DNA of 64,000 nucleotides from Sulfurimonas sp. HSL-3221. GTDB lineage: Bacteria > Campylobacterota > Campylobacteria > Campylobacterales > Sulfurimonadaceae. The notes under the pieces were generated by a model. That model was not told the origin of the DNA. It worked only from the letters and a program-made list of their open reading frames with translations, and made no database searches. The DNA is taken from positions 1,054,001 through 1,118,000 of the forward strand of contig NZ_CP087998.1 of the NCBI RefSeq assembly GCF_021044585.1. The letters run 5' to 3'. Positions 3,721 through 17,277 of the stretch are shown piece by piece (positions within the stretch are counted from its first letter, which is position 1; each line of letters opens with the position of its first letter). A program made the position numbers and the translations under genes.

Positions 3721-3769
3721 GTAGTAACTTTAACAAATTACTACAAAACCCTTGACACAAAAGTAGTAA
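3721..3769. repeat. Three GTAGTAA heptamers (inverted pair plus one direct copy) around a promoter
   Basis: GTAGTAA occurs at 3721-3727 and 3763-3769, and its reverse complement TTACTAC at 3738-3744. The first two form an inverted repeat with a 10-base spacer; the third falls inside the -35/-10 spacer of the promoter for the downstream EAL gene. The arrangement looks like an operator array, with repression expected if the third copy is bound. The binding protein is unknown; the integrase-arm-like domain encoded downstream is one candidate. Confidence 0.5.
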
Positions 3770-3864: not shown

Positions 3865-5430
3865 ATGCCGATTCGGACACTTCAGGACAAACACTACAAA
3901 GGGATCAGCGAACTCTACCGCAAATCCGACGGGAGGGTGACGGGTTACTACGTTACCTACCGCGACGAGGAAGGGAAGCCGGTCAAGCGAAGGGTCACCG
4001 CCGATGACAAGGACGAGGCACTTCGCAAACTGGTCGACATCAAAGATGAAGTTGACCGACTGAAACAGGAGAAGGCGATGAGCGCGCTCCCCCTAACCTC
4101 TGAACACCAGGGAAAGAAGCATGACGCGACGGCGGCACGGGCCGTGGACGTTACGCATGAAGTCCACTCTATGCATGATTGCCAGAAGCGGATCTCCTCG
4201 TATGAGGGCAACGCCGTTGTCATGCTGATCGACATTGTCGCTTTCGACGACATCCGTATCCTCTACGGATACGAGAACGCGGAACGGATGGTGGCGGAGC
4301 TTGAAACGCTGGTGCGCGCGACGCTGGGCCGGTTCGAAGAGGACGCCCACTTCCGTACCCTCGGTGCCGCGCCGTTCGATTTCGACCTCTACCATCTTTA
4401 TGCCGACCGGCTCTGCCTCTTTGTCAAAAACGACTTTTCGCACCGCCTGCTGGATTTCATCGCCGAAAAACTCCACGCCTGTGTGTCGGAATACGCCTTT
4501 CATGTCATACAGGGGAACAGCATCCATATCAATGTCTCAATCGGTGCGAGCAAAGCCGACGGCGCCGTCAGCCTGATGTACGCGGAAAAAGGGCTGCAGG
4601 AGGCGAAGAGGCTGCACAACAGCTACATCTTTTATGATAGCGGCTCCGCCGAGCGCAATACCCATTATTCCAATAAAACCTATGAACTGCTTCAGGAAAA
4701 CATCGAGCACAAAAGGGTGACGCCCTATCTGCAGGGGATCTTCCGCAACGGTGAACTGACGAAACCGGAGAAGTTTGAAAGCCTGATGCGGCTGGTAGAC
4801 CGGCAGGGACGGGTGCTTTCGCCGGCGGCTTTCCTGGAGAAGTCCAAAGAGTACCGCCTCTATACCCAGCTGATGCTGCAGATGATCGACAAGGTGTTCG
4901 ACGTGCTGGCGCACTACGACATCGCGGTGACGCTGAACCTCTCATATGTTGATATCAACAACGTGCTTTTACGGGAGCGTCTGCTGGAAAGGCTGGCGAA
5001 GGAGAAGCGCGGCGGCAGGCTGACGGTTGAAATTCTCGAGAGCGACCAGATTCGCGACCTGGAGATTGTCAACGAGTTCATATTCAGGCTGAAAAAAAGC
5101 GGTGTCTTGATCGCCATCGATGATTTCGGCAGCGGATTTTCGAACTATGACAACCTGCTGAACCTCGAAATCGATTACGTCAAGCTCGACGGATCGCTGA
5201 TCTCGAATATCCATGACCGCAAACATCGCATTATCCTCGGCAACATGGTCAATATCTGCCATGAGCTTGGGATCGAGACCGTGGCGGAGTACATCAGCGA
5301 CAGAGGGGTGCTGCGGATGGCGCAGAGCATCGGTGTCGACTATTTCCAGGGGTACCACCTTCATAAGCCGCAGCAGTGGGATGAGGCGCTGCAGACCTTT
5401 GGTTACAGGGAGGCCGCCTATGCATCATGA
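3865..5430 (+). CDS. Integrase-arm-like N-terminus fused to degenerate GGDEF and EAL domains
   Basis: This 521-residue protein has three parts. Residues about 5-70 (HYKGISELYRKSDG, then YYVTYRDEEGKPVKRRV and a charged helix) resemble the three-strand-plus-helix arm-binding domain found at the N-terminus of tyrosine recombinases; no catalytic recombinase domain follows. Residues about 115-255 are GGDEF-like, but the signature position holds YADRLCLF (179-186), so cyclase activity is not expected. Residues about 285-515 form an EAL domain that keeps the usual metal and substrate residues: E305 (ESL in place of EAL), N358, E389, D419-D420, K440, E475, Q495. It is therefore a plausible c-di-GMP phosphodiesterase or receptor linked to DNA binding. 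The ribosome-binding site GGAGG supports the ATG. The next gene overlaps it by 11 bases. Confidence 0.75.
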   Translation: MPIRTLQDKHYKGISELYRKSDGRVTGYYVTYRDEEGKPVKRRVTADDKDEALRKLVDIKDEVDRLKQEKAMSALPLTSEHQGKKHDATAARAVDVTHEVHSMHDCQKRISSYEGNAVVMLIDIVAFDDIRILYGYENAERMVAELETLVRATLGRFEEDAHFRTLGAAPFDFDLYHLYADRLCLFVKNDFSHRLLDFIAEKLHACVSEYAFHVIQGNSIHINVSIGASKADGAVSLMYAEKGLQEAKRLHNSYIFYDSGSAERNTHYSNKTYELLQENIEHKRVTPYLQGIFRNGELTKPEKFESLMRLVDRQGRVLSPAAFLEKSKEYRLYTQLMLQMIDKVFDVLAHYDIAVTLNLSYVDINNVLLRERLLERLAKEKRGGRLTVEILESDQIRDLEIVNEFIFRLKKSGVLIAIDDFGSGFSNYDNLLNLEIDYVKLDGSLISNIHDRKHRIILGNMVNICHELGIETVAEYISDRGVLRMAQSIGVDYFQGYHLHKPQQWDEALQTFGYREAAYAS

Positions 5431-16584: not shown

Positions 16585-17238
16585 TTATTGGAACTCTTTG
16601 ATAATGACGCTGTCCGTCGACCAGCAACCCGTATCATATTGAACCCCTGTGGCTCCCCCGGAAGAGGCCCTGGCATACATGCTGACAGTGTGTGATCCGG
16701 CGCTTAGGTTAGTGAAGAACCCTTCCATTGTTACTGCGACCCCGCTCGCACCGATTTCAGCTGACTTGACACTACCTCTGATACGGCTGCTGGTTGTCGC
16801 AGTGTCATCGATCCTCAGTTCGAAAATCACCCCGGTACCTGTCATCGAAGAAGCTGAAAGGCGCCCGCTGAACACGACGTTGAGTACCGTACCGTCCTGG
16901 GCTTTTGTAAACGATCCGATCGTGGCGATTTTCGCATAGGTTGTCGTCACACTGACAGATGCAGGACAGCTGACATTGAGGGTTGTCCATCTGACCAGCC
17001 CCGATTCAGCGATTGCAGTGGCATTGGTCTGTATCGCCGTTGCATTGGCGGTGATGCGCGTGTCGTTGTCGTTGATCTGCGTGGTATGCTCCGTAAAGTT
17101 GTCGTTCACTTCGGAGGCGTAAGCGGTCGTACCGGGGGTGAACGTTGTCATCCCGCTGACCTGCCCGGCGTAAAGACTCCCTGATACCATCAATGCCGAA
17201 ATACCTAGAAGGCGCAATCCAAATTGTCTGATTTTCAT
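16585..17238 (-). CDS. Secreted protein of unknown function with tail-fibre-like repeats
   Basis: The 217-residue protein begins at the ATG at 17238, which has AAAGGA upstream, and carries a signal peptide ending near SLYAG. Next comes TPGTTAYASEVNDNF followed by a short heptad-like region rich in Asn, Thr and Ile (QINDNDTRITANATAIQTNA), resembling trimeric coiled coils in phage tail fibres. The C-terminal ~130 residues look like a beta-sandwich (jelly-roll or C1q-like) with YARASSGGATG near the end. It is probably an exported, possibly trimeric surface protein. It directly follows the 44-residue lipoprotein gene on the same strand, so both may be expressed together. Confidence 0.65.
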   Translation of the reverse strand: MKIRQFGLRLLGISALMVSGSLYAGQVSGMTTFTPGTTAYASEVNDNFTEHTTQINDNDTRITANATAIQTNATAIAESGLVRWTTLNVSCPASVSVTTTYAKIATIGSFTKAQDGTVLNVVFSGRLSASSMTGTGVIFELRIDDTATTSSRIRGSVKSAEIGASGVAVTMEGFFTNLSAGSHTVSMYARASSGGATGVQYDTGCWSTDSVIIKEFQ

Positions 17239-17277
17239 GATGAATCCTTTTGAGTTTGTGTTCTGCCGCAACGGCCG

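Follow-up and report, generated by a model that had tools for sequence, protein, structure and literature searches.

The stretch of DNA under study (herein the window; G000:C1:1054001-1118000, 64 kb of a 2.52-Mb genome held in a single contig) encodes a protein of 521 residues (3865 through 5430, + strand), for which the ORF listing, Pfam, and a comparison of orthologs give a putative N-terminal arm-binding domain, a variable linker, a degenerate GGDEF domain, and an EAL domain, in that order. The EAL domain covers residues ∼276 through 503 (4690 through 5373, +; Pfam match to residues 276 through 502, E = 4.5e-50). All eight of its catalytic positions are filled (E305, N358, E389, D419, D420, K440, E475, and Q495), the roles of which we take to be established for the family, and the DDFGSG loop is retained. 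The GGDEF domain (residues ∼113 through 262; 4201 through 4650, +) is matched below threshold (residues 114 through 164; 15.9 bits vs. a cutoff of 23.8), and the GG(D/E)EF signature of active diguanylate cyclases is absent, the position reading YADRL (4399 through 4413). The initial annotation had described this ORF with the same coordinates and domain order, with a signature-less GGDEF domain and an EAL domain carrying all its ligands, and the present analysis agrees with that description. Pfam finds neither a Phage_integrase nor an HTH domain in the 521 residues; the GGDEF/EAL module stands in place of a recombinase core, and from its sequence the protein is predicted to be a c-di-GMP phosphodiesterase of the EAL class.

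GGAGGG is a plausible ribosome-binding site for this ORF, and a divergent gene for a Macro-domain protein lies upstream. Downstream, a second ORF (225 residues; 5420 through 6097, +) encodes another degenerate GGDEF domain (AEGDF); the two ORFs overlap by ATGA, and the second is probably on the same transcript as the first. The end of the second ORF (6076 through 6097) falls within the 3′ end of a tRNA-Leu gene on the opposite strand. The 3′ ends of tRNA genes are the usual integration sites of mobile elements, and the EAL/GGDEF gene pair may have arrived as mobile-element cargo. In the congeneric genome G005, a 5-kb island (L132:5697-10728) lies between the degenerate GGDEF gene and tRNA-Leu; it encodes a GmrSD_N protein, a RiboL-PSP-HEPN protein, and an unknown protein of 638 residues, ∼30 bp of the tRNA 3′ end is duplicated, and there is no integrase inside it.

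Syntenic, full-length orthologs are present in three further genomes of the same genus (G004, 96%; G005 and G007, 88%), and the gene is known from these four species, G000 included. It is missing at this locus in G006, where a cytochrome gene adjoins tRNA-Leu, and beside ftsK in G002; the draft genome G003 has just the 3′ end of the downstream GGDEF gene left, with a deletion of ∼2.1 kb relative to G007. Among the four orthologs, dN/dS is 0.00 through 0.13 for residues 1 through 70 and 0.03 through 0.08 for the EAL domain; the N-terminal domain is therefore kept as carefully as the enzyme, and the long, variable linker (residues 71 through 112) has diverged. These values rule out a decaying gene and confirm that the ORF is a real gene under purifying selection.

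The initial annotation had derived the N terminus from the arm-binding domain of an integrase. In a single-sequence search of 100 relatives, residues 1 through 79 alone gave four non-orthologous matches with E < 1e-4 (7.6e-8, 8.7e-8, 3.5e-6, and 6.5e-5), all of them tyrosine integrases, two truncated. A profile built from eight sequences of the domain has matches in 70 of the 397 genomes of the phylum, and of the non-orthologous matches ∼35 were translated and proved to be integrases (truncated in some cases) or pieces too small for a call; where no locus had been fetched, a match was assessed from the length of its open frame alone, which is mostly that of an integrase. None of the ∼35 carries an EAL domain, so the fusion is seen in the four orthologs only, and further fusions of the domain within the phylum were rejected. 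In a phylogenetic tree the domain falls within a clade of integrases that includes L094, L096, L077, and L035 (support 0.999), with L096 as its nearest neighbor (support 0.887). The arm-domain models of Pfam, including the PF13356 model to which the initial annotation had pointed, do not match residues 1 through 87 at cutoff. PF13356 is below cutoff in the corresponding region of two integrase relatives and most other integrase homologs are unmatched, so this subfamily lies outside the reach of these models. A search of PDB sequences with a profile of the domain found no relative, nor did scans of viral contigs with the domain alone, with sub-alignments, or with one integrase; scanned with an integrase profile, the viral contigs yielded distant integrases. 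Taken at the level of sequence, the homology of residues 1 through 70 (3865 through 4074, +) to the N-terminal domain of Campylobacterota tyrosine integrases holds up well.

Modeled by AlphaFold without an alignment, the N-terminal domain has a β-β-β-α order of elements (pLDDT 69.5), and the same order is obtained with seven distant arm-type rows (pLDDT 67.8). For the single-sequence model, Foldseek returned weak, unrelated matches, and the second-look list from VIA-align holds no arm domain. For the aligned model, Foldseek returned no significant match either, and we take both Foldseek results and the VIA-align list for the single-sequence model as uninformative; with the aligned model, the second-look aligner placed three Toxoplasma mitoribosome chains at ranks 1 through 3, the AP2 domain of SIP2 (6sy0) at rank 4, and the arm-type domains of the HAI7 and HPI integrases (3ju0 and 3jtz) at ranks 5 and 6 (Z = 5.2 and 5.1; ranks 4 through 6 span 5.1 through 5.6). 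As these Z values are modest and the rows of the alignment behind the matching model were chosen as arm-type, the structural match is support, not proof, that residues 1 through 70 share the arm/AP2 fold. The integrase-arm origin thus stands on sequence and profile searches, the nesting in the tree, and the AP2 and arm structures among the top rows. Neither of the two outcomes that the initial annotation had named as contrary to its reading, a predicted fold unrelated to arm domains and a lack of detectable similarity to integrase N termini, was obtained.

The gene is preceded by a sigma70-type promoter, as read from the sequence (3752 through 3781, +), with TTGACA at 3752 through 3757, an 18-bp spacer, and an extended −10 element, TGCTAGCAT, in which TAGCAT (3776 through 3781) is preceded by a TG extension; the hexamers are conserved in the four species. 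The GTAGTAA repeats that the initial annotation had noted upstream are real, three in number, and lie within 49 bp. Two form an inverted pair (site 1, 3721 through 3727, +; site 2, 3738 through 3744, −) inside a 27-bp block, TGTAGTAACTTTAACAAATTACTACAA (3720 through 3746), and the third (3763 through 3769, +) sits in the promoter spacer between −35 and −10, with sites 1 and 3 being 42 bp, or four helical turns, apart. By chance ∼1.7 copies of the word are expected in the whole window; the Poisson probability of three sites in 60 bp is near 7e-10, an uncorrected value for a region that had been named beforehand. The 27-bp block is identical in G000, G004, G005, and G007, in which the intergenic DNA just upstream is largely diverged, and site 3 and the spacing of the sites are invariant in the same species. 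The exact inverted pair occurs a single time in the genome, and a direct GTAGTAA pair occurs once per genome in each of the four, at this promoter; exact paired sites are thus confined to this promoter, as expected for autoregulation. Allowing up to three mismatches, the inverted operator is found at one further place common to all four genomes (TGTAGTATAAGTTGTTTACTACTTCA, three mismatches; G000:C1:404843-404868, conserved also in G004, G005, and G007).

The leader contains a 9-bp hairpin (ACCGTCGTC/GATGACGGT; 3797 through 3819) that is conserved, with a G-U pair replaced by G-C in G005 and G007. The 5′ leader as a whole has no unusual folding stability, and an Rfam match in the 5′ region was rejected as a chance match.

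Integrases with the homologous domain carry tandem repeats upstream of int, mostly with a period of 11 through 13 bp. The repeated word is GTAGTAA upstream of L078, L081, L083, L087, and L090 (L081 being from G005, of the same genus as the window) and differs in others (for example, GTATTAA in L092). The integrases nearest to the window domain among those sampled, L094, L096, L077, and L035, have the related words GTATAAA, ATGGTAA, GTGGAAA, and GTTGTAA, respectively; in the tree, the exact word belongs to a sister group and not to the nearest sampled clade. The best upstream repeat exceeds dinucleotide shuffles (P < 0.05) in 16 of 24 regions, and several of the remaining eight lie behind another gene. 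Across the loci inspected (those named above together with L097, L102, L103, and L105), two to three tandem copies of a 7- to 8-bp word lie just upstream of int, and the word varies by subfamily, GGTTGCCA and GGGTAGCA being further examples.

The tandem TGTAGTAA is present in 22 of the 397 genomes: 12 are among the 16 genomes that have a strong arm-domain integrase, and 10 are among the 381 others (Fisher P = 4e-14). Seven genomes with two tandems were compared, and six have tRNA-like direct repeats of 29 through 87 bp within a few hundred base pairs of both; among these six, two have their ends on different contigs, and the repeats of G421 include a tRNA array, which makes them weaker cases. 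Judged by its sequence, this arrangement of tandem and tRNA-derived repeat matches attL and attR with their adjoining P and P′ arms. In viral contigs, the strict tandem pattern is found in one phage (two contigs), directly at the integrase gene. The phage L135, which is unrelated to the Tn916-family element and has an arm-type integrase, has GTAGTAA at the 3′ end of int. The Tn916-family element itself carries the word (L167:76-93 and 17215-17245): two copies of GTAGTAA lie 11 bp from each other at one end, and the end with the integrase has AAGTGGTAAAT and AAGTAGTAAAT repeats. Structures of the Tn916 N-domain are available (1B69, 1TN9, 1BB8, and 2BB8), and the DNA in 1B69 presumably contains GTAGTAA. 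A sequence comparison of this N-domain with the window domain is not significant, which leaves fold class and the common site word as the basis for linking it to Tn916 Int.

Bringing these lines together, we propose, with a probability of roughly 0.65, that the gene encodes an autoregulatory DNA-binding c-di-GMP phosphodiesterase (a “trigger phosphodiesterase”) that acquired its DNA-binding domain from a tyrosine integrase. The protein very likely binds the upstream GTAGTAA repeats: residues 1 through 70 would recognize the word that is the arm-type site of integrases with the same domain. EAL domains dimerize and bind c-di-GMP. The window protein would form a dimer, which the inverted pair suits, or a higher oligomer, probably joined via its EAL and degenerate GGDEF parts, and this oligomer would occupy the inverted pair (3721 through 3744) together with the third site at 3763. 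Since site 3 lies under RNA polymerase, protein bound there should be repressive; for the upstream pair, loading of the protein, looping to site 3, and activation are all conceivable roles. The interpretation given in the initial annotation is supported in part: its first two elements, integrase origin and DNA binding, hold up well, and the third, control by c-di-GMP, is plausible in view of the intact EAL site. Binding and hydrolysis of c-di-GMP in the EAL domain would alter the oligomer and hence its occupancy of DNA, by which the gene would be controlled by the level of c-di-GMP that its product lowers. Against the proposal weigh the modest confidence of the structure models, of which the one that matched arm domains was built with arm-type rows; the words of the nearest sampled integrases, which resemble GTAGTAA but are not identical to it; and the layout of the sites, which departs from that of integrase arms. 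We also favor, slightly less firmly, the proposal that arm-binding domain and arm-type site were co-opted together from recombination into a c-di-GMP-gated autoregulator of AP2-like rather than HTH type.

Binding might instead be independent of c-di-GMP, the arm domain holding the protein on its operator as a plain autorepressor or as a phosphodiesterase parked on DNA. The operator evidence is silent on the ligand and the stretch that joins the domain to GGDEF/EAL is long and variable, both compatible with this alternative, but the strong selection on the EAL catalytic residues and DDFGSG loop speaks against it, as does PdeL, an example of ligand gating in such a fusion (PMC5052742); we consider it unlikely. 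We regard as improbable that a GGDEF-EAL gene captured the promoter and 5′ end of an integrase gene and that the sites are relics, either idle or serving an integrase in trans. Integrases of this class do carry sites just 5′ of the start codon, which would make it easy for site and domain to be acquired at once, and the promoter is AT-rich (31% GC vs. 57% for the window). Yet the 27-bp block and site 3 have stayed invariant in four species beside diverged intergenic DNA, and their layout differs from that of integrase arms, an inverted pair with a distant direct copy vs. 11- to 13-bp tandems. Moreover, no arm-domain integrase is detectable in G000, G004, or G007 by sequence and profile searches, and use of the promoter sites by a resident integrase of this class was therefore rejected for these genomes.

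That the operator belongs to another regulator, with residues 1 through 70 being a β3-α domain that does not bind DNA and serves, for example, protein contacts, would accord with the commonness of β3-α domains, the weakness of the fold matches, and the fact that a footprint does not by itself identify the protein behind it. We judge it very improbable against the identity of the word with the arm-type word of integrases that have the homologous domain, and against the restriction of exact paired sites to this promoter, which fits autoregulation.

On that reading, the locus would be a concrete case of a DNA-recognition module of mobile elements, domain and site together, being reused for signaling. 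Comparative data predict the operator word, which makes the circuit of site, domain, and ligand testable in its entirety. The integrase loci suggest a simple rule for Campylobacterota, namely that the tandem repeat just upstream of int often gives the arm-type word. Genome sequences could accordingly reveal the specificity of the domain, and these upstream tandems offer material ready for such decoding. The initial annotation had not recognized the design among described regulator classes. No report of a fusion between an integrase arm domain and EAL was found in the literature searched, largely that accessible without subscription; the statement calls for qualification, since a DNA-binding EAL autoregulator as such is already known in PdeL.

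E. coli PdeL (YahA) is a trigger phosphodiesterase, a DNA-binding and autoregulating EAL protein with a LuxR-type HTH, and high c-di-GMP counteracts its DNA-bound activation of its own gene (PMC5052742). A like mechanism would turn the window gene into a c-di-GMP-sensitive switch. Like PdeL, the window protein combines an N-terminal domain, here predicted to bind DNA, with an EAL domain of the active type; the imperfect palindrome in the promoter of pdeL compares with the inverted pair described here, and autoregulation, reported for PdeL, is what we infer for the window protein. The two differ in their DNA-binding domain, a LuxR-type HTH in PdeL and an integrase arm-type domain here, and in the GGDEF part, which PdeL lacks; the operator described here consists of arm-type sites, the third of which falls within the promoter spacer. 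MrpR of prophage SPβ is likewise a tyrosine-recombinase part reused as a DNA-binding regulator, but it retains the core-binding fold and a catalytic fold that is inactive, and it lacks a second-messenger domain (PMC10516654); the window protein keeps the arm domain alone, fused to degenerate GGDEF and EAL domains. With Campylobacterota tyrosine integrases such as L081, L094, and L096, the protein shares a homologous N-terminal domain and, at its promoter, the GTAGTAA word of their arm repeats, and with Tn916-family Int it shares that word as an arm-type repeat. These integrases possess a core-binding and a catalytic domain, and their sites stand in tandem at the element ends; the window protein, unlike them, combines the arm-type domain and its word with a predicted c-di-GMP phosphodiesterase in place of this recombination apparatus.
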